From the IMG/VR virus record IMGVR_UViG_3300026488_000003, positions 1 to 46,225 of that record: a DNA stretch of 46,225 nt; one strand, written 5' to 3'. Position numbers and translations under genes: made by a program. The DNA comes from a virus. Position 1 is the stretch's first letter, and every line of letters begins with the position of its first letter. Below the pieces are notes generated by a model. The model saw only the letters and a list, made by a program, of their open reading frames with translations. It was not told the DNA's origin and made no database searches. Positions 1 to 46,225 of the stretch are shown here, one piece after another.

Positions 1-209
1 AGTTTTTAAGAGATAATGCAAATAAGGGTGATATTGTTTTGATTCAGGGTGATTTTGGGGCTGTTGTTGAGATGGTTGAATTTGTAAGGTTTTGGCTTAT
101 TCCAGTTTATGCTACTACTAAAAGAGTAGTAAAAGAGATACAAAAAGACGGAAAGGTTGTAAAAGTAAGCGAATTTAAGCATGTAAAATTTAGGAAGTAT
201 TCAGGATAA
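1..209 (+). CDS. csx20: Csx20-like CRISPR-associated protein, C-terminal part (gene continues from 46023-46225)
   Basis: This is the C-terminal half of a 127-residue protein whose N-terminus lies at 46023-46225; the two parts join in frame through the 28-bp end overlap. It reads from phase 3 (codons start at base 3) to TAA at 207-209. Visible segments are GDIVLIQGDFGAVVEMV, then IPVYATTKR, then a C-terminal FKHVKFRKYSG. From memory these match the Csx20 family, which also has an LFSH-LT start, a WSNIPPE block, a QGDFGA block, a P-YATT block and an F-HV-FR-Y end. The family is found beside type III CRISPR systems and is linked to removal of cyclic oligoadenylate second messengers. In a phage it would act in the host cytoplasm as a counter-defence enzyme or sponge; that role is inference. 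The coding sequence contains no GAACCA word and has slightly richer GC than the main operons, which suggests a separate origin. Confidence 0.8.
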   Translation, partial: FLRDNANKGDIVLIQGDFGAVVEMVEFVRFWLIPVYATTKRVVKEIQKDGKVVKVSEFKHVKFRKYSG

Positions 210-233
210 ATCCCTGAATACTTTCTTTTTTCT
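195..233 (+). terminator. Intrinsic terminator of the Csx20-like gene
   Basis: An 11-bp perfect stem, AAGTATTCAGG pairing with CCTGAATACTT, is followed by a T-rich run. The left arm is the last codons of the gene and the stop codon lies in the loop. Confidence 0.9.
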
Positions 234-357: not shown

Positions 358-615
358 ATGTGTATTTTGTGTGATTTTTATAGAGATAGAGTAAGGGTGG
401 GGGCAATAGCCTTCACCGTCGGACATAATACCGATATCCATCAAAGATGGGGGAGGTATGAAGATGGAAAGCTCATCGGAGTAACAGATGAGCTTTTCAA
501 TGAAATAAAAAAAATAGCTCCTGAATTAAAATCAAAAAAACGTCTGGAGGAGATAATCCTCCAACAAGATGGCTGTTGTTGGTTGTACGAGAAATATGAA
601 AAAGAAAGAGAGTAA
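358..615 (+). CDS. Uncharacterised small early protein with N-terminal CxxC
   Basis: This 85-residue protein is not recognised. It starts at an ATG after AAAGGAGATAGCG and carries a CILC pair at residues 2-5, a further Cys pair (GCCW) near residue 73 and a charged helical end rich in Lys and Glu. It stands alone between its own leader and its own terminator, which overlaps the stop codon, like its neighbours. The codons use more G and C than the replication operon does, as in the adjacent Csx20-like gene. Its position in a row of independent small early genes suggests a host-takeover or anti-defence role, but nothing in the sequence shows the function. Confidence 0.75.
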   Translation: MCILCDFYRDRVRVGAIAFTVGHNTDIHQRWGRYEDGKLIGVTDELFNEIKKIAPELKSKKRLEEIILQQDGCCWLYEKYEKERE

Positions 616-5783: not shown

Positions 5784-6067
5784 TTAGAGTATACGCATTT
5801 GAACTAGAAAAAATTATTAAAACATTGCTTAGTGATGAATATAAAGGTGATTTTTTAGTTGTTAATAGAAGAAAAGATAATGTTGTTTTAGAAATTAGGA
5901 AAAAAGATTTTATTGTCTTAAAGATGCCATTGAAAAGAACAGTTGCTAATCAGTTCTTTGTTGACCATTTTGAAGAACCAACAGACATGGTTACTATGCC
6001 TGTTGGGACTCACAAATCAATGATGGCAACAATTAAAAGATTAGCTATGTATAAGGAGAAAAAATGA
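5780..6067 (+). CDS. Uncharacterised 95-aa basic protein
   Basis: The ATG follows AAAGGAGAATAT, which lies inside the preceding small gene. The sequence has a helical start (YAFELEKIIKTLL), beta strands (DFLVVNRRKDNVVLEIRK) and a Met-rich, basic end, MVTMPVGTHKSMMATIKRL. It overlaps the next start by four bases. It is not recognised. Confidence 0.65.
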   Translation: MIRVYAFELEKIIKTLLSDEYKGDFLVVNRRKDNVVLEIRKKDFIVLKMPLKRTVANQFFVDHFEEPTDMVTMPVGTHKSMMATIKRLAMYKEKK

Positions 6068-8020: not shown

Positions 8021-8716
8021 ATGAAATTACAAATTGTTAAACCAAAAGATTTAGTTGCTAAAAATCTAAAAGCTCTTATTTATGGTAAAAGTGGTATTGG
8101 TAAAACTTATCTCGCTGGTTCTGTAAAAGATGCATTGGTTCTTGACTTAGAAAAAGGTAGTGCATCTGTTAAAAATAAAGATATAGATGTTGTTCCTATT
8201 GCAAATGCAAAAGAGTTTAAAGAAGTATTAGAGTATCTAAAAACAGATACAAAATACAAAACTATTGTTGTTGATTCTATTACAAGATATGCTGAAATGT
8301 TGTATGTTGCATTAACAAAACTTTATCCTGATAAAAAAGATTCACTAAAACTCTGGGGAGATTTTGATGTTGTTAGTAGACAAAGATTGGAAGATTTATT
8401 ACAAATAGAAAAAAATATCATTGTTACTGCTCTTGAAGAAGACATTAATGATGGTGGATTTTTAAGAAAATATCCTATGTATAAAGCAAGTAAATTTAGA
8501 ATGATGATACCAAGTTATTTTGATTTGGTTAGTCATTTAGTTATTGATGAACAAGGTAATAGAATGATGATTAATGAACCAACACAAGATGCTATTGGAA
8601 AAAATAGATTGGTTGGTTTTGGTATTCCTAATGTTATTTCTTCAAATGAAGAATTATATGATATGCAAAAAATAATTGATAAAATTAAAATGGAATCAAA
8701 AGATGGAAATAGATAA
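8021..8716 (+). CDS. Sak4-like phage recombination ATPase (RecA/Rad51-like P-loop)
   Basis: A 231-residue P-loop ATPase. Walker A is GKSGIGKT (residues 22-29), then LVLDLEKGSASV, and the Walker B strand is KTIVVDS at about residue 86. Size and motif order fit the phage AAA_24/Sak4 group, RecA-core single-strand annealing proteins that work with an SSB. The SSB-like gene is next but one downstream and a Cas4/RecB-like nuclease follows, forming a typical phage recombination set: nuclease, annealing ATPase and SSB. It would act on single-stranded ends during replication and genome joining. Confidence in ATPase is high, in Sak4 moderate. Confidence 0.8.
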   Translation: MKLQIVKPKDLVAKNLKALIYGKSGIGKTYLAGSVKDALVLDLEKGSASVKNKDIDVVPIANAKEFKEVLEYLKTDTKYKTIVVDSITRYAEMLYVALTKLYPDKKDSLKLWGDFDVVSRQRLEDLLQIEKNIIVTALEEDINDGGFLRKYPMYKASKFRMMIPSYFDLVSHLVIDEQGNRMMINEPTQDAIGKNRLVGFGIPNVISSNEELYDMQKIIDKIKMESKDGNR

Positions 8717-9647: not shown

Positions 9648-10373
9648 ATGGATAAAATAGTTAAAAAACTACTTGAAAAAACTCAATATAATGGAGATAA
9701 AGAACCAAGCAATACAATTAGTGCAAGTGAATTTGGTTCTGATTTATTACAAATATATTATAGACATAAATATGGTGTTCCTGATAATAAAGAATTTAAT
9801 CAAGCTACAATTGGTTCTTTGTTGCATATATCAGTTCAAGAGCTTTTAAAAGATGAGTTTAAAAGTGAAGTTCATTTAAGTAAAGAATTTCCTAATAAAT
9901 GGAAATTAAGTGGTTCTATTGATTTATTAAATGATGAATATATTATTGATATAAAAGTAACTAAACAATATACAGTTGAATCTGTATTAAATAATAAATA
10001 TCATGCTTATAGATGGCAATTAGCAGTGTATAAGTATCTTGCAAAAGAAATTCTTGGAAAAGATTTAAAAACAGGAATTTTATTTTTTTTAAAAGATGGT
10101 GGATATGATTTTAGAAATAAGAAAGATTTACCATCAATTTTATTTAAAGAATTAGAAGTTCCTTCTAGTAAAGAAGTTGAAGAGAGATTTTATGAAATAA
10201 TTGAAAAACTTAATTTAATTGATGAAGATAATTTTCATTGTCAGGATTTATGGTGGAGAAAGGATAAAACTGGTGTATCAGAACCACTTAGATGTAAGAA
10301 ATATTGTTCTTATTCGGATAAATGTAAATGGTATCAAAAATTTAAAGAAAATAATTTAAATGTATCTTTTTAA
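9648..10373 (+). CDS. Cas4/RecB-like PD-(D/E)XK nuclease with a cysteine cluster
   Basis: A 241-residue nuclease-like protein. The core shows a GSLLH motif, then SGSIDLL with Asp at about 92, then IIDIKVTK with Asp101 and Lys103, then RWQLAVYKYL with Gln124 and Tyr at 128, matching the RecB/Cas4 fold order. Four Cys near the C-terminus (about 198, 216, 220, 226) could hold an iron-sulphur cluster, as in Cas4 and AddB. It probably resects DNA ends for the Sak4-like annealing ATPase and SSB upstream. A Cas4 homologue in a phage can also interfere with host spacer acquisition; I see no direct sign of that. Confidence 0.8.
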   Translation: MDKIVKKLLEKTQYNGDKEPSNTISASEFGSDLLQIYYRHKYGVPDNKEFNQATIGSLLHISVQELLKDEFKSEVHLSKEFPNKWKLSGSIDLLNDEYIIDIKVTKQYTVESVLNNKYHAYRWQLAVYKYLAKEILGKDLKTGILFFLKDGGYDFRNKKDLPSILFKELEVPSSKEVEERFYEIIEKLNLIDEDNFHCQDLWWRKDKTGVSEPLRCKKYCSYSDKCKWYQKFKENNLNVSF

Positions 10374-19138: not shown

Positions 19139-19279
19139 ATGTTTGAGTTGGTTCTAACTTTAATTTTATTGAGTTGGTTATTTGTAGAACTTGTTAAGTA
19201 TTTTATCAAGGAAAATATTAAGAAACTTGATGAATGTGAAAAAGAAAAGAAAGAGAAGAATTTTTTTGATAGATTTTAA
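19139..19279 (+). CDS. Small single-TM protein, 46 aa
   Basis: The ATG follows AAGGAGTCAAT. Residues 2-19 (FELVLTLILLSWLFVELV) form a hydrophobic segment and the rest is a highly charged helix, KLDECEKEKKEKN. This layout fits a small inner-membrane or spanin-like protein. It is the last plus-strand gene and its stop overlaps by three bases the stop of the giant minus-strand gene. Confidence 0.6.
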   Translation: MFELVLTLILLSWLFVELVKYFIKENIKKLDECEKEKKEKNFFDRF

Positions 19280-22200
19280 TTTTGATTGATTATAGGAGTA
19301 AATGTATTTATTACTCCTTTTCTTAGTGTATAAGTATCGTAAATCCATTCATACATATCAATTGGAGAACCAACAAATGGAACAATTGAATCAATATCAT
19401 ACAAACTTACCATTGAGTTAATGTTTAAACCAATATCTCCAATCATAACAATGTTATGGTCAATATACCATTCATCTTGTGAATCATTTGGTTCTGACAA
19501 TAAATCAGGTATATTTGTTAAGAATAGAGACATTGTTATATATTTTGGAACATTATTCATTAATGCAAACATTAATATTTTTGGATAAGACAACATAAAT
19601 TTTGTATATGGAACAAATTCACTTATTATTGAAATTCCTGCTGGTAAGTTATTGTATCTTGGAAATGCTAACAATGTATGTTTAACTGCCATTTCAGGGT
19701 CATTATATTTATCTTTGAGATGTAAGAATAAAGCCATTTTAGGAATAATTTCTGAATTATCAAACACTTCTGAGAATTTCTTACCAAGACTATTTTCTTC
19801 TGGGTCAAAACTTAACCATTTAATACCATCTTTTATATCTTTACCAAAATTATTTTCAATCATATGAAACATTGTTAATTCTTTTTCAGAACCAAGAGTC
19901 ATAATATCTTCTCTAATTGTTAAACCAAGTCCATATTTTAATGCTAAATAACCATCTTGTTCTTTTAATTCTTTTTTTAATTTTTCAAGTTCTTTTTTTA
20001 ACTTAATAGATTCTGTTGTTTTGTTTTCAAATTCAAGTTTATTAATTTCTTCTTCAAGTTTAGCTATTTGTTTAATTTTATCTTTTAATTCTTTGATTGT
20101 TTTTTTAGCTTTGTTGTGATAAGTAACATAATTTAATGGACCAAGTGATGAATGATGAGTAAAAATCATAAAGTTTGTTAAGAAGTTACTTATCCAAAAT
20201 CTAGGGTTTAAGATTAACATTTGATGAGATGTATATTTAGTAAAGTCTGCTGTGAACTTGATTATAGGAGATAATGCTTTAATAAAGTTATTATCAATTT
20301 TATTTAAATCAATTCCTTTTGTTCCAAGGATATAATGTTTGTAACTTTTATCAATATAAAATCCTGTTCCAAACATTGTTGATAGATAATGATTATCAGG
20401 TAGTTTTTCAAATTTGTTTCTTAAACTTGGATTTTTTGCTATTCTTTGTTCAATTTCTTTTTTTGATAATAAGAAACCTTCATCTCTTAGGATTTTAAAT
20501 ATTTCATATCCTTCATTTTTAGCTAATTGTTGTTTCATTTTAACATAGTTATTTCTTGTATGTTGAGATGAGAAACTATAATCAATGTTTTTTGATGCAT
20601 AATTGATGTTATGTGGGTTTATTTGAACATAAACACCATTTATTTTTCTCTCAAATATACCTCTTTCAAAGTCATCAAGATTAAGTGTTAATAATTGAGG
20701 TTTTTGTCTTCCAAGAGTCATATCATATTTAGTTATAGGTATAGCATAATAAGTTTTATCTTTCATTCTTATTGTTGCTATTAAATCACTTTCATTTTCA
20801 GGTTTTGTTTCTATTAAAGCTACATTCTGTTGGTTCTTTAAGAAGTCAAGAGAAATGTTTTCACCAAACAAACTAAAATCATTAGCATCTTGATTAAACA
20901 TGTATAGAATTCTATTTACTTCATTATGTTTATTGTTTTTATAAAGAGATAAAAAGTCTCTTAGTTTATTATAGTCTGTATTTTTACTATGGCTTAACAT
21001 TTTAAGTGAAATTATCTTTCTTGCTATTACAAGAGATTCTGTGTATGTTATTAAATCTTTTCCCATATTGTTATGAATTGTTGCTATTTCTTTTGCAAGT
21101 TTTCTTAATAAATCAACTTTTTTAATAGCATCTTGTGTTTTGTTTATTTTGTCTGCAATGTTAAATATTTTGTTTGTATTTTTCATTCCATAGAGATTAA
21201 TCATTTTTTCTTTTAAAGAAATAAGTTTTCTTTTTGAAAAATCATTAATTTGCTCTTGGTTCTCTAACATTTCTTTAAAAGAGATATTAAGTTCATCATC
21301 AAACTCTTTTATTGCTGTTATGTTTGTTACTTCTTTTATTAAAAAGTTTAATCCTTTTGTTATTGCATAACCTAATGATTTATCTGTTTTTTCCCATTCA
21401 ACTGGTTCTATTTCTTTAATAAGAGATTCTGAATATTCTTTAATTTCTGCTGTTGTTGTTTGTAACATACTCATTGCACCATTATAAATAGCTAATGCTT
21501 CATTTAGTTTAACTTTATCTTGTGTTAAATCAAACAAATCTAGTAATCCAAGATTTTTAGCAAAACCTTCTTGTTTGAATGTTACTTTTGAGATAAAGAA
21601 TTCAACATTTTTATTAATCTTATCAATAATTTCTAAATCAGAAGTTTTGTTAAAAGGTTTTTCTCCTATTAAAAGAGATTTAATATCATCATTTGTGTTA
21701 ATAATACCTAATATTTTAGAACCAACAGAGTCAATACCATCTGTTTTAAACTTAACATTAAGAACTTTTTTTAAGTCTTTTATAGTTGATATTTCTGTTG
21801 TCTTATCTTTTTTTATTACTAAAATTTTTTGTAAATTACCATCCAATGATACAAATGATTCACCCTTAACTCCTTGGTTCTTTGAAAAGAAATAAGCAAG
21901 TTTTTCTTTATTAGCTTTTATTATTTCATTTCCAACCAATGAATGTATAAAAGCTGTTTCAAATTCTTCAAATTTTTGAATATCAGAATCTGATATGTTT
22001 GAATATTTTTTCTTTTGAAAATTATAATAATCACTTAATTTAACATTTCCATAAGAACCAACATTCAATACTAAATCAAAATCATCCTTTTGTATTTTTT
22101 CAAATAAATAAAGTAAATCGTTTCTTAATTTATCATAATCAATCATATCTTTTTTATGAATTATTGAGTGTGTTACTTCATGAACCAATTGATAAAATTC

Positions 22201-25200
22201 ATCAAGATTTGTTATTTTTTTAGGAAGTTTAAATTTAATCTTTTTACCTAAATCAATAAATTCACTTTTGCTAATACCATTGTCAAATAATTCATAAATA
22301 ACACTTTCTGGTTCTATTCTAATATTTCCTGATTCATCAATTGAACTATTTTCAAGTCTTTCAAATTTAAAACCTTTAAAGTATTCAGAACTGAATTTTG
22401 TTAAGAATCCTAAATCTTTAACTGCTGTTATATCTATGTTTTTTAAATCATTTTCTGTTAAAGTTCCTTGTTCTATTGTTGCTCTTTCTTTAACATTTGT
22501 AATTTTTAATTTGTTTTCTTTTCTTAAATTTGATGCTAATGAATTAAGTTCTTTTTTTGTTTTTTTACTTTCAATAATACCATTACTAAATTGTTGTGTT
22601 GTAATAATATCGTTATCTTTTTTTTGTTTTAGAGTTTCTTTTTTAATTGAAGATATTTCATCAATCAATTCAGATAGTTTTTCAACATCTTTTACTTTAT
22701 ATCTACCTGTTTTATCATCATAAACAATATTTATTGAGTTTAGAAAATCATTTAATAAGTTCTTTTTAGCAAAATCAACTTCTTTTTGTGTTGTTATTCT
22801 ACCGTTGTTAACCAATACAAGTTCTTTTGCCATTTGTTCAAAGAAACTATCAAGAGAACCAAGCCTATCAGTAAGTTCAAGTATTTTTTTATTTGTATTT
22901 TCAACATCTTTTTTTAAATCTTCTAACCATTTAGTATCAACAAACATAGCACCATAAATATCATTTTGTAATTCACCTACTCTCATACCTTGTAGTCCAT
23001 AAGTAGCATCAAACCTATGAACAATTCCTTTTATTTGTTTTGAATTTGATGCCATTAATGTAGCAAGTCCTAAGTTATCTGATTCTGTTGATTGAACAAA
23101 GTATGTTAAAGGTTTAGAAATTATTGCCATGTTTTTATATGTTATTTTTGTTTTTTCATCATAACCAGTAGGACCATTAGTAAATGGTAATAGTTCTCTA
23201 CCAAAAGGAGTTTTAACTGTTTGTATTCCTGATTCTCTTATTGCAGTAGGAGAACCAAATACTTCAAATCCATTCTTTTTAAATTCATCAAAGATTTCTT
23301 TGTATGTTGGTTCTTTATCAATAAATTCTTTTTTTATGTTTTCTATATCTTCTTTTGTTAATCCAAGTTCTTCTCCTATCTTTTCAATTAATTGTAAATG
23401 ATTTTTAGCTTTTTGATTTACTGCATATAAAGTTAGTAAGTATTTCTTTTTATATAAAGATTCAATTAAATCTCTAAATTTAAAGTATTTAGAAAATTTA
23501 TCATTTTTGTAAAGTTCTTCTCTATAAGAATTAAGATGAGTTTGAGTAAACATTTCAGCTAATCTATCTTTAAAAGAATCTGTTGTTATTTTAGAATCAA
23601 TTGTTTGTTTTATTGTTTTAATTGTTGATTCGTCAAGTAATCCTTGATTTATTACATCTTCAAACATGTTTAAATATTCTTTATATAACATAAGTTCTTC
23701 CATTGGGTTTAAATCATATTTATTTTCAGTTCCTTTCATTAGTTCAAGATAAGTATTTTTTATTTTCATAAATAACATTTCTTGCATGTCAATTGATACA
23801 AAACTTTTTTTAAGATTTGATAATAAGTTGTAATACTCTTTTTCACTCAGTTGGTTCTCTTCAATAAATTCATTAAATAAACCTATTTTCTTAGCTTGTT
23901 CTATTTTGTTATCTATTTTATCTGATTTAGATAAAGCAATAAATTCAATTAGTTTTTTCTTTAAGAATTTTAATTCATCTTTTAATTCTTTTGATTTAAA
24001 GTTTCTTAAATATCTATTATCTTGTTTCGTAAGTTCTTCTAAGAAGAAATTTAATCTGCTATCAATATAGTTGTTTTCAGAACCAAGTTCAAAGATTTTA
24101 TTTTCAATGAAAGAGTATATAAAATCTTTTAATGTATTTTTTACTGCTTGTCCATATCCTAATGCTTGTGTAGGTTTTTTAGCATCACTTCTACTAACCT
24201 CAGGAATTAATAATCTAATAGACTTATCTATTGATTGTTTTACAAGTGTATTTTCAAGTAATTCAGAGTGTTCTGTATACATATCGTTTTTAGCTTTATA
24301 GATTTCTCCATCTATACCTGTTGCATCATCTTTTATACCAATGATTGCATTCATAACTCCATACATGTTTTGGTTACCATCAAACTCTGCTATTAATTTT
24401 GTAGGGTCTATTTTTGATAATAATCTTTTACTTGGATTTAGAAAGTTATTTAGTTTTAATTCTTTATTCAAGTATTCAAGTTGTTGAATATATGTATATT
24501 TTTTGTAACTATTTGGAATTTCATCTTTTAATTCAACTAATTTGTTAACTATTCTTAAATAATCTTTGAATTTAGCTTTATTAGATTTATCTATTTTTAT
24601 TTTTCCAGTATCTATTCTAAAAGGTTCAAGATAAAGTTGTTTTAATTTCTCTTGTTTGCTTGGTTCTTGTTTACTAATCCAATCTTCAATTACATCAAGT
24701 CCATCTATTTCATCAATAGCAGTTTTGATTGATGAAATTATGTATTTTTCTGCTTCTTTTTTATCTTTAAAAACTCCTACTCTGTTTTTTGAATCAAAGT
24801 TTTTTGCTACTTCAAAAAGATTCTCATAATCATCAAAATGTAGAAATACTTTTGAATATCTGTTTGATTGAAGATGTAAATCTCCATCTTGCATAATTCT
24901 TCCACTAAAACTAATATTATTCATAGGAGTAAAATTACTAAATTCAAAATTATCTTTATAAGATTTCATTTTTTTAAAATCTTTTTCATATTCTTTTATT
25001 AAAGCTATTAAACCATTGTTTACATCAAATAATTTTCCATTTAATCTTGTATCTAATTCATTTAATAAATCTTTAACATCAAGATTTGATGAATCAATTA
25101 CTTTCATAATTTGTTTTAAATAATCATCTTTTAAATTAATACCATCATGAGCTTTTTGAAACTTAAACAATTCAAATAATCTTTTAATATCTTGTTTAGT

Positions 25201-28170
25201 AGCTTTATTTTTTTCTATTTTAGAGATAATATCATTAAACTCTGTAAATGAATTTTCTATCTCTCTAATAGAGTCATCAAAGAATTGACCTGATTTAAAT
25301 TTAATTTTAACATTACTCATTGCTTTAACAAGAGATAATTCACTTCTATTTAAAAGAGCTTTTGATTTTTGATTAATAAGTCCTCTTAGTTTTGCATAAT
25401 CAACAACTACTTTTGGTATTTTTCCATCTTTTAGTTCAATCATTTTTAATGATTTTTTATCAATTGCTTTTGGAACACTTGGGTCTAATAAGTTAGATAT
25501 ACCAAGAAAATCATTATTGTATGTTTTAATAAATCTTAGGTTATGAGATACTATATTGTCTTCTATATTTTTTAATTGTTCTTCTGTTATTTTTCTATCA
25601 TTAATATCTTTTATGATATTTGTAAATTGTGTTTTACCTTCTTTAAATATTTCAGTTTTAGTAATTTTAATATCTTTGTTTTCTACTCTTTTGAGTTTTT
25701 TAAATGAATTAATCAACACATAATCTGGTTGGCTCTTTTTGAAGATTAAATCAAAAGATTTTTCATCTGAATTAATGATTTTTGATAAGAAACTTTTTAA
25801 ATTATTAATTGAATCAGTTTCAATAGGAATGTTTCTTTTTATTTCTTCAATTAAGATTTCTGAGTTTTCTATTTTTAAACCTAAATCAATTAATGCTTTT
25901 TTAAAAATATCTTGTGTTAGTTTTTCAATATTCAAATCTTTTGAATCAAGATAAATGTTTACTACTTCTTCAAATTCTTTTGATTTTCCTTTAACTACTT
26001 TTAAATCTTTAAAAAGATTAAATAGTTTTTTTCTTGCAGTTATTTCTAATAATGCTTTAAATTCTTTTTTTAATCTATATTCTCCATTTTCTTCTTTTAC
26101 TAATTTACTAATTAAGTAATCAATATTTTCATCATATGTTGTTGTTTTAGAAATAATATCTTCATACATTTTAATGATTGATTTTTCAACATCATTAACA
26201 AGTTGTTTTCTGATATCAAATATTTGTTTAATATCAATATTTTGTCCAGTAATATCTCTTATTAGTTTTATTGATTTAGCTATATGTCTATCAATGTTTA
26301 ATAGATGTTGAACAATTTTTGATTGTTGGTTCTTTGTTAAATAATCTTTTAATGATTTAAAGTAACTTAAATTTAAATCTCTATCTATTTTAATAGTTTG
26401 TTTCTTATCAGATAAAGATAAGAATTCATCACTACTTATTCCTTTTTGTTCAAGTTCTTCTAAGTCTTTTAGAATTTCTGTTTCTACTTCTTTTTTAAGA
26501 GAAGAATCAATAGGAACTTTTGATTTAATTTTAAGATTTTCTAAATCTGCATCTTTAATATTAATGATGTCATTTCTATGATATTTTCTTACTATTGCAT
26601 CATTTGTAATAATCTCAGGTTCTTTTATAGCTTTTATAATATCGTTAAAAGACAAGTTTCTTAGTTCATTAATATCTTTATCTTTAAATTTATTTAAAGC
26701 CTCTAATGTATATGCAGCAATAGATAATTTGTTTATTAAATGATTTTCTTTTATGTTTTCTTTTGTTAGATAACTTTTATTGTATTCAGCTTTTTTAGGT
26801 TGGACAAGAGGTTTGTCTTTTATCTTAGTTAAGAACCAACCAGAGTTTACTTTTGAATTAAAATGAATTGTTTTATCAGATATATTTGCTTTTAATAAAT
26901 CTTTTACTTTTTTAAGTATCACTTTTTCTTTTTCTGGTTCTACATTTAAAGAATCAATTTGACTAATTATGTTTTCTTTTTCTTTGTCATCTTGTGCTAT
27001 TTCACTTATTAATGTTTTTATATCATTAATTGATTTTAGATTATCTATCTTATCTTTTAATTCTTTGATTTCTGAATTATGTTCTTTTGTTATAACAACA
27101 GAACCAATATCATCTTTGTTGTATTTAATAATTTCTCTTACTTTACTAAGATTTTCTTTTTTAATTATTTCATCTTCAATCTTGTTTAATTCTTTAATTG
27201 CTTTTTCTTTATCAATTTCATTATTAATATATTTTTCTTTTATATTAATAGCTTTTTCTTTTAATTGTTTATCTTTTGTGTTTGCTATAAGTGTTTCATT
27301 AAATAATTCATCATCATTTAAAACTTTATCTATTTCTTCATTTGTTAAGTGTTTGATAGATATTGTTTCTATATCATCACCCTTGTTGGTTCTAAATTGA
27401 ACTTTATGTTCGTAATTGTTTTCATTTTCTGATACTTTTGATTTTAAATTAAAGTTGTTATGATGCTTTATAGAATAAATAACATCATTAAATTCATCAT
27501 CATCAAGATGTTCCATAGAACCCATACCATCTGTTTCTTCAAGAGTTTTTTCTAATGCATATTTAATGTTTTTCTTTTCTTTTGCATGACTTAAAACACC
27601 AAGTGTTACAAAAGGCATAGATGCTATTAAATTAAGACTAAAATTCTCTACAAAGTTATCACTCATGTCAACTTCAACTCTTTTACCTTCATCATCAATA
27701 TATGATGATTTACCAACTGTTGTTTGGAATCCTGCCCAACCTATATTAGAACCAGTAATAGTTAATACATTTTTTAGTGATTCAAGTCTTGTTGATTCAT
27801 CTGAATGCAATGCTATTTGTTTAGCTAAATTACCTTTAAAATGTTTTCTTATTAGTTTTCCAGTTAGTTTACTTGATAAACCTAAAATTCTTTTTTCAAT
27901 AGCACTAGTTAAACCTCCACCAGCTAACAATCCAATAGCATCTCCAACAAATGTTGTTTGTTTAGAACCAGTTGGAGAATAGTTATCTCCAATATCAAAT
28001 GCATTAAATGTTAATCCATCAATAGCATCTTTTGCTACATCTCCAAGATAAGAAGTTCCATAGGTTCTTAATGCGGCTTGTGTAGCTTGTTTATCTAAAT
28101 CTACATCTTCATCAATTGTTCCAGTTATTTCCTGAGTTACATATTCATCTAAATTAAATTTATCACTCAT
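19276..28170 (-). CDS. Giant virion or ejection protein with an HEVTH metallopeptidase motif
   Basis: This 2964-residue protein is the last gene of the late operon and its largest. The N-terminus has hydrophobic Gly-rich stretches (VGDAIGLLAGGGLTSAIEK), as in internal virion proteins that enter membranes. Most of the body is Lys/Glu-rich coiled coil. Residues 1997-2001 are HEVTH, in a context (LDEFYQLVHEVTHSIIHKKD) that suits a zinc metallopeptidase; a Glu-rich FEEFETAFIH about 60 residues on could supply a third ligand. The C-terminal region has LNPRFWISNFLTNF, like large polyvalent protein domains. It is probably ejected into the host with the DNA. Very large polyvalent proteins can carry early-acting enzymes; the protease may be one. 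No transglycosylase or RNA-polymerase motif was seen. Confidence 0.8.
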   Translation of the reverse strand: MSDKFNLDEYVTQEITGTIDEDVDLDKQATQAALRTYGTSYLGDVAKDAIDGLTFNAFDIGDNYSPTGSKQTTFVGDAIGLLAGGGLTSAIEKRILGLSSKLTGKLIRKHFKGNLAKQIALHSDESTRLESLKNVLTITGSNIGWAGFQTTVGKSSYIDDEGKRVEVDMSDNFVENFSLNLIASMPFVTLGVLSHAKEKKNIKYALEKTLEETDGMGSMEHLDDDEFNDVIYSIKHHNNFNLKSKVSENENNYEHKVQFRTNKGDDIETISIKHLTNEEIDKVLNDDELFNETLIANTKDKQLKEKAINIKEKYINNEIDKEKAIKELNKIEDEIIKKENLSKVREIIKYNKDDIGSVVITKEHNSEIKELKDKIDNLKSINDIKTLISEIAQDDKEKENIISQIDSLNVEPEKEKVILKKVKDLLKANISDKTIHFNSKVNSGWFLTKIKDKPLVQPKKAEYNKSYLTKENIKENHLINKLSIAAYTLEALNKFKDKDINELRNLSFNDIIKAIKEPEIITNDAIVRKYHRNDIINIKDADLENLKIKSKVPIDSSLKKEVETEILKDLEELEQKGISSDEFLSLSDKKQTIKIDRDLNLSYFKSLKDYLTKNQQSKIVQHLLNIDRHIAKSIKLIRDITGQNIDIKQIFDIRKQLVNDVEKSIIKMYEDIISKTTTYDENIDYLISKLVKEENGEYRLKKEFKALLEITARKKLFNLFKDLKVVKGKSKEFEEVVNIYLDSKDLNIEKLTQDIFKKALIDLGLKIENSEILIEEIKRNIPIETDSINNLKSFLSKIINSDEKSFDLIFKKSQPDYVLINSFKKLKRVENKDIKITKTEIFKEGKTQFTNIIKDINDRKITEEQLKNIEDNIVSHNLRFIKTYNNDFLGISNLLDPSVPKAIDKKSLKMIELKDGKIPKVVVDYAKLRGLINQKSKALLNRSELSLVKAMSNVKIKFKSGQFFDDSIREIENSFTEFNDIISKIEKNKATKQDIKRLFELFKFQKAHDGINLKDDYLKQIMKVIDSSNLDVKDLLNELDTRLNGKLFDVNNGLIALIKEYEKDFKKMKSYKDNFEFSNFTPMNNISFSGRIMQDGDLHLQSNRYSKVFLHFDDYENLFEVAKNFDSKNRVGVFKDKKEAEKYIISSIKTAIDEIDGLDVIEDWISKQEPSKQEKLKQLYLEPFRIDTGKIKIDKSNKAKFKDYLRIVNKLVELKDEIPNSYKKYTYIQQLEYLNKELKLNNFLNPSKRLLSKIDPTKLIAEFDGNQNMYGVMNAIIGIKDDATGIDGEIYKAKNDMYTEHSELLENTLVKQSIDKSIRLLIPEVSRSDAKKPTQALGYGQAVKNTLKDFIYSFIENKIFELGSENNYIDSRLNFFLEELTKQDNRYLRNFKSKELKDELKFLKKKLIEFIALSKSDKIDNKIEQAKKIGLFNEFIEENQLSEKEYYNLLSNLKKSFVSIDMQEMLFMKIKNTYLELMKGTENKYDLNPMEELMLYKEYLNMFEDVINQGLLDESTIKTIKQTIDSKITTDSFKDRLAEMFTQTHLNSYREELYKNDKFSKYFKFRDLIESLYKKKYLLTLYAVNQKAKNHLQLIEKIGEELGLTKEDIENIKKEFIDKEPTYKEIFDEFKKNGFEVFGSPTAIRESGIQTVKTPFGRELLPFTNGPTGYDEKTKITYKNMAIISKPLTYFVQSTESDNLGLATLMASNSKQIKGIVHRFDATYGLQGMRVGELQNDIYGAMFVDTKWLEDLKKDVENTNKKILELTDRLGSLDSFFEQMAKELVLVNNGRITTQKEVDFAKKNLLNDFLNSINIVYDDKTGRYKVKDVEKLSELIDEISSIKKETLKQKKDNDIITTQQFSNGIIESKKTKKELNSLASNLRKENKLKITNVKERATIEQGTLTENDLKNIDITAVKDLGFLTKFSSEYFKGFKFERLENSSIDESGNIRIEPESVIYELFDNGISKSEFIDLGKKIKFKLPKKITNLDEFYQLVHEVTHSIIHKKDMIDYDKLRNDLLYLFEKIQKDDFDLVLNVGSYGNVKLSDYYNFQKKKYSNISDSDIQKFEEFETAFIHSLVGNEIIKANKEKLAYFFSKNQGVKGESFVSLDGNLQKILVIKKDKTTEISTIKDLKKVLNVKFKTDGIDSVGSKILGIINTNDDIKSLLIGEKPFNKTSDLEIIDKINKNVEFFISKVTFKQEGFAKNLGLLDLFDLTQDKVKLNEALAIYNGAMSMLQTTTAEIKEYSESLIKEIEPVEWEKTDKSLGYAITKGLNFLIKEVTNITAIKEFDDELNISFKEMLENQEQINDFSKRKLISLKEKMINLYGMKNTNKIFNIADKINKTQDAIKKVDLLRKLAKEIATIHNNMGKDLITYTESLVIARKIISLKMLSHSKNTDYNKLRDFLSLYKNNKHNEVNRILYMFNQDANDFSLFGENISLDFLKNQQNVALIETKPENESDLIATIRMKDKTYYAIPITKYDMTLGRQKPQLLTLNLDDFERGIFERKINGVYVQINPHNINYASKNIDYSFSSQHTRNNYVKMKQQLAKNEGYEIFKILRDEGFLLSKKEIEQRIAKNPSLRNKFEKLPDNHYLSTMFGTGFYIDKSYKHYILGTKGIDLNKIDNNFIKALSPIIKFTADFTKYTSHQMLILNPRFWISNFLTNFMIFTHHSSLGPLNYVTYHNKAKKTIKELKDKIKQIAKLEEEINKLEFENKTTESIKLKKELEKLKKELKEQDGYLALKYGLGLTIREDIMTLGSEKELTMFHMIENNFGKDIKDGIKWLSFDPEENSLGKKFSEVFDNSEIIPKMALFLHLKDKYNDPEMAVKHTLLAFPRYNNLPAGISIISEFVPYTKFMLSYPKILMFALMNNVPKYITMSLFLTNIPDLLSEPNDSQDEWYIDHNIVMIGDIGLNINSMVSLYDIDSIVPFVGSPIDMYEWIYDTYTLRKGVINTFTPIINQN
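19295..19325 (+). terminator. Plus-strand terminator in the convergent region
   Basis: GGAGTAA (19295-19301) pairs with TTACTCC (19311-19317) and is followed by TTTTCTT. It sits inside the 3' end of the giant gene and would stop plus-strand transcripts. Confidence 0.6.
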
Positions 28171-39848: not shown

Positions 39849-40145
39849 TTATTCCTTTAATAAATTATCAGAATAACTTAATATTAATTGTTTAATTTCA
39901 GATAAAATATCTTCATTTGAAATTTCTTTGTTTTTGCTTAAATAAACTATTTTTTTATCAATCAACAATTCATTACAATAAAGTTTTATTTCAACTTCAT
40001 TAGAATAAATTGTTACTTCAAATGTTTTAATTAATCCATCAGAACCAACAGGGGTATATTTTATACCTTCAACTTCTAATGTTGGTTCTAAACAATTAGT
40101 TTTTACTTCTATTTGATATAAGTTATCAGTCATTTGTTTAACCAT
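39849..40145 (-). CDS. Uncharacterised 98-aa beta-rich protein
   Basis: I place the start at ATG 40145, overlapping the lysozyme stop by eight bases; a TTG at 40160 and an ATG at 40133 are alternatives. The protein is beta-rich (IKYTPVGSDGLIKTFEVTIY) with a helical end. Small proteins of this shape often belong to tail assembly. Not recognised. Confidence 0.5.
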   Translation of the reverse strand: MVKQMTDNLYQIEVKTNCLEPTLEVEGIKYTPVGSDGLIKTFEVTIYSNEVEIKLYCNELLIDKKIVYLSKNKEISNEDILSEIKQLILSYSDNLLKE

Positions 40146-40560
40146 TGAATGCGCTTTCAAATAATTTTTTAACTCTATTACATCTACTTTTAACTTGATT
40201 GCACCATTTACTATTCTCTATTTCATATGATGCTTTTTCAAAATCAAATTCATTTAGAGCTTTAATCATTTTTTTAAATGTTTTAAATCTATTAATCCCC
40301 ATATTAAACATCATATCAATAAGTCCTATCTTGATTGGTTCGGGGAACAAATAAAAATTATCTTTAAATATCTTAACTAAATCATTAATAGCATCATCTA
40401 TATCATTTTGAAAAAGATATTCAACCTCATAATCTTTTAATCCTTTTCCAGTTAAATTTCTACCTATTCCAATAGTAATATTACCATATATATCTTTATA
40501 TGGTTTATTCCTATATCCTTCATTTAATAAAATAAATTCTTTTACTTTGTCTATGTTCAT
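40138..40560 (-). CDS. GH24 endolysin (T4-type lysozyme)
   Basis: This 140-residue enzyme cleaves peptidoglycan at the end of infection. The catalytic triad Glu-8-Asp-5-Thr is plain: E14 in LNEGYRNKPYK, D23, and T29 in IYGNITIGIGRN. The later GLIDMMFNMGINRFKTFKKM is the usual helical region. There is no signal peptide, so it should need a holin; the coiled-coil membrane protein directly upstream is the obvious candidate. The length is a little below T4 lysozyme (164). Confidence 0.92.
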   Translation of the reverse strand: MNIDKVKEFILLNEGYRNKPYKDIYGNITIGIGRNLTGKGLKDYEVEYLFQNDIDDAINDLVKIFKDNFYLFPEPIKIGLIDMMFNMGINRFKTFKKMIKALNEFDFEKASYEIENSKWCNQVKSRCNRVKKLFESAFNG

Positions 40561-45514: not shown

Positions 45515-45886
45515 ATGGAAATTGTTAAATGTCTAAAAGAAAAGCTTATTAAAGAAAAGAAATTAATGGAGGAAAAGGAAAAAGCAGTTAAAGAAAAATT
45601 AAGAAAAATAATGGAACATTCCATATATTGGAGGGCGGAAATTGAAATAAATGAATATGAAAAGATTTATGTATTCGGAGATGGTGATGTATCATTAATC
45701 AAGGAATATTGTGATGAAGACGGATATGTAACAGAAGAAGAACGAATAGAGGTTACAGGCATAAAATTGGCACAAATGAAGGACTTAGATAAGACATTAA
45801 TAAATAAAATAATTAAAGATTACGAAAAAGAAATTGAATGGGTAAAATCAATTAATGATTTGTTCAAAGAAAACTGGGGAGTATAA
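45515..45886 (+). CDS. Uncharacterised 123-aa early protein
   Basis: It follows AAAAAAAAGGAGAGTATC. The N-terminal 30 residues are a Lys/Glu coiled coil (EKKLMEEKEKAVKEKLRKIM), followed by a more compact acidic part with IYVFGDGDVSLIKEYCDEDG and EERIEVTGIKLAQMK. It is a stand-alone unit with box copy 8 before it and a strong terminator after it, directly upstream of the Csx20-like gene. It has no GAACCA word inside. Function unknown; an anti-defence or host-takeover role is possible from context only. Confidence 0.7.
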   Translation: MEIVKCLKEKLIKEKKLMEEKEKAVKEKLRKIMEHSIYWRAEIEINEYEKIYVFGDGDVSLIKEYCDEDGYVTEEERIEVTGIKLAQMKDLDKTLINKIIKDYEKEIEWVKSINDLFKENWGV

Positions 45887-45902: not shown

Positions 45903-45986
45903 ATTCCTAAAAACATTCAAAACAAAAAAAAATACATAAATATTATTTTTAATAACAAACAAACACCTACATATATAGTATATAAT

Positions 45987-45998
45987 TAGCTTTTGTGA
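45987..45998 (+). promoter_or_regulatory. Promoter-like TATAAT plus leader box TAGCTTTTGTGA, copy 9
   Basis: TAGTATATAAT lies directly before the box, which ends 24 nt before the ATG of the Csx20-like gene. It is the best promoter candidate for that gene. Confidence 0.65.
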
Positions 45999-46022
45999 GA
46001 AATCAAAAAAAAGGAGTGTAGA

Positions 46023-46225
46023 ATGAAAAAGATGTTTTTACTATTTTCTCATAGATTAACTGATGAGCAGGAGATGGATGCGAGGGAGAATTTTGGGATA
46101 GAGGAATTTGTTTATTTACCTGAAAAACTCCAAAAAGTTTGGTCAAATATTCCACCAGAAATTGAAGATATAAAGCCGTTGCTTGAAGATATTAAGCAGT
46201 TTTTAAGAGATAATGCAAATAAGGG
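46023..46225 (+). CDS. csx20: Csx20-like CRISPR-associated protein, N-terminal part (continues at 1-209)
   Basis: The ATG follows AAAAAAAAGGAGTGTAGA. The N-terminal part reads MKKMFLLFSHRLTDEQEMDA, then IEEFVYLPEKLQKVWSNIPP and a helix ending QFLRDNANKGD. The LFSH-LT-EQ start, the FVYLPE-LQ-WS-IPPE block and the later QGDFGA block (bases 45-62) together are what I remember as the Csx20 signature. Joined length is 127 residues, the usual size. No CRISPR array or other cas gene is present in this genome, so the gene stands alone and is more likely an anti-CRISPR than part of a system. Whether it degrades or merely binds cyclic oligoadenylate cannot be read from the sequence. Confidence 0.82.
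   Translation, partial: MKKMFLLFSHRLTDEQEMDARENFGIEEFVYLPEKLQKVWSNIPPEIEDIKPLLEDIKQFLRDNANK
46198..46225. repeat. 28-bp end overlap identical to bases 1-28
   Basis: The last 28 bases equal the first 28, and the Csx20-like frame continues through the join. The contig is a circular assembly of about 46,197 bp. A repeat this short inside a gene is more likely an assembly overlap than a physical terminal repeat. Confidence 0.95.

Follow-up and report, generated by a model that had tools for sequence, protein, structure and literature searches.

The window analysed here is a stretch of 46,225 nucleotides of a virus record in IMG/VR. It is a circular phage contig that carries the same 28 bases at both ends (1-28 = 46198-46225), and it encodes a terminase, an SU10-type portal, a major head protein, a primase, a lysozyme, ThyX, and a Sak4-like annealing protein, a gene content that is that of an ordinary tailed phage. 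The gene csx20 lies on the plus strand across the ends of the window. Its first part (46023 to 46225, codons 1 to 67) is an intact ORF starting with ATG at 46023, and its second part occupies positions 1 to 209, of which bases 1 to 28 duplicate 46198 to 46225 and bases 29 to 209 are new coding sequence ending in TAA (207 to 209). When joined at the 28-bp overlap, the two parts give an uninterrupted frame of 127 aa, in agreement with the earlier note on this DNA, which had described a 127-residue protein split across the window ends. The join is genuine and does not result from wrapping the window, because an independent IMG/VR contig, 3300026382_000071 (L001/L091), whose DNA is 99.2 to 99.5% identical to the window, encodes the identical 127-aa Csx20 in one piece (L001:6001-6384) with phage genes on both sides. 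An assembly chimera was also ruled out by this contig, in which the unbroken csx20 lies among the same phage genes with another left neighbour.

Judged by its sequence, the 127-aa phage protein is Csx20, with a match far beyond chance. The joined protein scored 163.1 bits (E value 3.5e-48) with the NCBIfam model NF040559 (CAS_Csx20), whose curated cut-off is 70 bits, and the match spans all 124 profile positions (1-124). The PADLOC Csx20 model gave an E value of 5e-53; scores over the Csx20 models ranged from 163 to 177 bits. The assignment to Csx20 made in the earlier note is thus supported by profile search. All eight columns that are invariant in a 71-sequence alignment (phage copy included) are kept in the phage protein: H10, Q16, L72, Q74, G75, F77, R100, and R123. 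The product had no match in PHROGs, no match over the cut-off in Pfam, and no relative in a sequence search of the PDB. Csx20 is a CARF-derived ring nuclease. An AlphaFold2 monomer model of the phage protein (pLDDT 95.7) was compared with PDB structures; Csm6 (8jbc) ranked first, and the Crn1 enzymes Sso2081 (8htw_B; prob 0.91, TM 0.50) and Sis0455 (7z55) were also among the top matches, with no match reaching an E value of 0.001. Identity with AcrIII-1/Crn2 was rejected, as only Csx20-type models match the protein and no AcrIII-1 structure was among the PDB matches listed for the model.

Sixty proteins (the products of 58 window ORFs and of the joined csx20, and one cassette gene product of L001) were scanned with PADLOC; apart from Csx20, no CRISPR effector or signalling gene was found, and the weak matches were CARF-, regulator-, and Cas4-like. 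The Cas4 match comes without a protein name in the PADLOC output; its source is most likely the PD-(D/E)XK protein encoded at 9648-10373, an ordinary phage nuclease. The statement that this genome has no other cas gene therefore holds for signalling and effector genes, but one phage protein scores weakly as Cas4. The 2964-aa ORF at 19276-28170 was scanned against PHROGs only and had no match there; it presumably encodes a giant virion protein.

The closest relatives of the phage Csx20 were sought in 84,980 prokaryote genomes and were found in two Nautiliaceae (Campylobacterota) MAGs, G001 (locus L026) and its sister G002 (locus L011), from the hydrothermal sample 4571-419, a Guaymas Basin vent deposit (PMC12043954). 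The gene order at L026 is cas1, a DnaG-like gene on the opposite strand, cas2, cas2, a gene for a 117-aa protein, and csx20. L011 has the same order, and a Csx1-like CARF-HEPN gene then adjoins csx20. Both relatives are associated with a type III CRISPR locus, an association that is absent from the phage genome itself. The two adjacent cas2 genes differ from each other, and they and the 117-aa gene of no known function lie just 5' of csx20 in both loci (L026:2070-2922 and L011:4310-5162). The DNA of the phage csx20 is 98.6% identical to that of L026 over 209 bp, up to the end of the contig; because this contig stops inside csx20, the comparison covers 64 codons only, with two base differences in 192 coding bases and 98% protein identity over 64 residues. 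The Csx20 of L011 is 78% identical to the phage protein (dN 0.11, dS 1.07), which has two additional C-terminal residues (SG). In the base-by-base comparison with L026, upstream similarity is limited to the last ~6 to 14 bases before the ATG, with an unbroken TGTAGA beside it; the ribosome-binding site AAGGAG (46011 to 46016, plus strand) was delineated in the same comparison, and further up lies the phage leader.

In a maximum-likelihood tree, the phage copy groups with that of L026 (100/91) and then with that of L011 (100/97), nested among cellular loci of Campylobacterota. Since the phage copy lies inside the cellular sequences, a transfer from host to phage is favoured. The opposite direction is disfavoured both by this nested position and by the gene order common to L026 and L011. 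The DNA identity to a CRISPR-locus csx20, together with the position in the tree, points to a recent acquisition, and the phage gene was probably taken from the host lineage. The GC content (csx20, 32.6%; phage, 25.1%; host locus, 33.2%) was considered as proof of host origin and was not used as evidence, because the neighbouring cassette genes have 30 to 38% GC. Patterns made from wider alignments to seek further close viral Csx20 returned the same phage only.

In the window, csx20 is part of an array of at least eight small genes that extends from ~45472 across the origin to ~2490. The genes of the array have a TAGCTTTTGTGA-like leader and an AAGGAG-type site 5' of each, and most of them end in a terminator-like hairpin that spans their own stop codon, with T-rich sequence after it. 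The TAGCTTTTGTGA motif precedes nine cassettes; at two mismatches or fewer, 8 copies occur within 2.8 kb, compared with 9 in the remaining 43.4 kb. The leader of csx20 (45981 to 45998, plus strand), composed of TATAAT and then the motif at 45987-45998, is a putative promoter, and a terminator-like hairpin with a following T-rich run straddles the stop codon (193 to 225, plus strand; −18.8 kcal/mol for a 60-base stretch), the layout seen in most neighbouring cassettes. Because it sits in this array and has the leader and the hairpin of a phage cassette, csx20 appears to be set up for phage expression, which suggests that it has been fitted into the expression units of the phage. The left neighbour (45515 to 45886, plus strand; 123 aa, no known function) is replaced by a different 124-aa gene in L001, and the exchanged segment runs from the leader to the T-run behind the hairpin. 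This swap between near-identical phages suggests that single genes are exchanged in the array. On the other side of csx20, the next cassette gene (358 to 615, plus strand) encodes an 85-aa protein of no known function. The array is a good place to seek further counter-defence genes of vent phages.

The earlier note had named a type III system in the likely host as a check, and such genes are found at the level of the lineage. G001, the MAG with the near-identical csx20, contains partial csm3, csm4, and csm5 and a CARF protein on a contig other than that of csx20; no Cas10 was recovered from it, the sole hit (28.8 bits) being probably a GGDEF protein. Its sister G002 contains Cas10/Csm1 (507 bits), Csm2-5-like genes, and a Cmr module with a Cmr-type Cas10. 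A CRISPR array of G002 (L011:252-2117) has a duplicated spacer block, with 300 bases repeated exactly 579 bases apart.

Spacers of these MAGs match the phage. A protospacer at 5868 to 5905 on the minus strand matches the G001 spacer C66:3578 in 35 of 38 bases, in an array that is assignable to no single Cas module, type III or other. In the controls, at least 8 mismatches were seen for every one of 40 shuffled windows searched with the spacers of G001 and G002, and unrelated sequences gave at least 11 with the G001 spacers. Chromosomal genes of Nautiliaceae lie on the contig that bears this array, with UvrA at 88-92% to that of other members of the family. At the protein level, where the maximum control score in 20 shuffles was 46, two identical G001 spacers encode GAIAFVVGHNAD against GAIAFTVGHNTD at 400-435 in the 85-aa cassette gene (10 of 12 residues, score 54), so the host lineage has targeted relatives of this gene. 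A G002 spacer likewise matches at 8264 to 8299 (plus strand), within the gene for the Sak4-like annealing protein (8021-8716), with IIIDSLTRYGEM against IVVDSITRYAEM (8 of 12 residues, score 49). Further short, AT-rich DNA matches to Nautiliaceae genomes were taken to be noise, and G018:C122 (L204), the one of them that was inspected, had no array repeat. The G001 bin holds two uvrA copies (100% and 98%), indicating a mixture of close strains, and microdiversity has been described for vent Nautiliales bins (PMC9793634). Because of this mixture, the link between phage and host stands at the level of the lineage with no single proven strain, and the csx20, csm genes, and array of G001 may derive from sister strains.

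Considering that Csx20 is encoded by a phage whose host lineage has type III CRISPR and spacers against this phage, we suggest that an anti-CRISPR ring nuclease is the best reading of the gene. We regard it as very likely that the phage Csx20 is a recently acquired host cA4 ring nuclease that is expressed by the phage and used against type III CRISPR; the parts of this reading that we infer are the cleavage of cA4, the expression of csx20 in infected cells, and an advantage to the phage. The proposal of the earlier note that the phage probably silences host type III signalling is well supported by the type III genes of the host lineage and the matching spacers. In this scenario, the source of csx20 would be the type III CRISPR locus of the Nautiliaceae lineage that the phage infects, and a cassette among the phage's own small accessory genes would provide its expression. 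The binding of phage transcripts by host Csm/Cas10 during infection would lead to cA4 synthesis, and the phage Csx20 would linearise this cA4 before full activation of CARF effectors such as Csx1; the off-switch of the host would thereby serve the phage as an anti-CRISPR.

One member of the CRISPR-locus Csx20 family has been tested; it fully degraded a 100-fold excess of cA4, cleaved cA3 weakly at a high enzyme concentration, and did not cleave cA6, and ring nucleases occur with cA4 effectors (PMC12409355). Cleavage of cA6, which the earlier note had named beside cA4, is accordingly not expected of the phage protein. It could be proposed that Csx20 is mainly a cA4 sponge that binds its ligand without useful turnover, since sequestration is a way in which some Csx15 proteins, relatives in the CARF superfamily, can neutralise cA4-based defence (PMC13148439). 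However, the complete degradation of excess cA4 by the tested enzyme and the presence of every invariant residue in the phage protein make this quite improbable, and the large amounts of cA4 made by type III systems would probably leave a sponge with little effect (PMC13148439). The cleavage of cA3 at high enzyme concentration (PMC12409355) would allow Csx20 to act for the phage against a different cyclic-oligonucleotide defence, for instance a CBASS with cA3 as its signal, instead of type III CRISPR; but the preferred substrate is cA4, the near-identical relative lies in a CRISPR locus, and the host lineage has type III genes and spacers to the phage, so that we consider this very unlikely. 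That csx20 is a passenger, picked up by chance among exchangeable cassettes and not yet under selection for any function, would suit the very recent transfer and the swapped neighbouring cassette but is scarcely credible for a gene whose frame is intact and identical in two independent phage contigs and which carries the leader of the phage and a hairpin across its stop codon.

The use of Csx20 as an anti-CRISPR ring nuclease has to be seen beside what is already known. Csx20 is already known as a phage gene, since, among 28,114 phage genomes, Hoikkala et al. 2025 (PMC12409355) found it in 4 and Csx16 in 2; the expectation in the earlier note that a viral Csx20 would extend the known kinds of anti-CRISPR ring nuclease is therefore overtaken. 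The four published proteins are likewise phage-encoded and have been proposed to act in counter-defence (PMC12409355). The phage protein resembles the Csx20 of type III loci (NF040559) over its full length and keeps the invariant residues, whereas its gene lies in a genome without a CRISPR locus and under phage-type signals. Divergent Csx20-like proteins are encoded by the Fusobacterium phages JD-Fnp1, JD-Fnp4, JD-Fnp6, and JD-Fnp7 (that of JD-Fnp1, at L007:5001-5366, shares ~31% identity with the window protein and has a score of 48 bits) and by IMG/VR 3300043395_001531 (L002:5698-6102, 31 bits), with both scores under the cut-off of 70; compared with the JD-Fnp proteins, the window copy is almost identical to a host CRISPR gene. 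AcrIII-1/Crn2 is also a viral ring nuclease that destroys cA4 against type III CRISPR, the role proposed here for the phage Csx20, but its fold is unrelated. AcrIII-1 is thought to be viral in origin and to have passed from virus to cell, whereas the csx20 of the window probably came from a CRISPR locus. Other viral ring nucleases are Crn4b (PMC12830947) and the SAVED protein AcrIII-2 (PMC12751052). The latter offers a close parallel, as a cA4 ring nuclease of a hot-spring phage from metagenomes that scavenged a CRISPR sensing protein, with a host spacer against the phage (PMC12751052); however, it has a SAVED domain and the window protein is Csx20.

On the question of whether phage ring nucleases originate in viruses or in CRISPR loci, the window offers a clear recent case of transfer from cell to virus, marked by a DNA identity of 98.6% and by a matching spacer. 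The case contributes a very recent gene capture from a host CRISPR locus, a spacer record of the conflict, and visible expression signals. A fuller reading, on which we are evenly balanced, is that the phage has been caught soon after the capture of one gene, from ~6 bases before the start codon, which was spliced into a cassette array that exchanges anti-defence genes and whose genes are targeted by host spacers; this would be the first Csx20 for which donor, recipient, and target are all visible. The matched pair of phage and host enzymes also raises a direct question, namely, whether a ring nuclease that resets the immunity of the cell disables this immunity when it is supplied by a phage.

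Related prophage genes were also sought in Nautiliaceae. A Sak4 relative was not found there, and similarity was confined to the phage lysozyme gene (40138-40560), which weakly resembles stretches of two MAGs (G021:C179:4011-4154 and G015:C128:1515-1760) with 68 to 72% DNA identity; these stretches perhaps belong to related phages.
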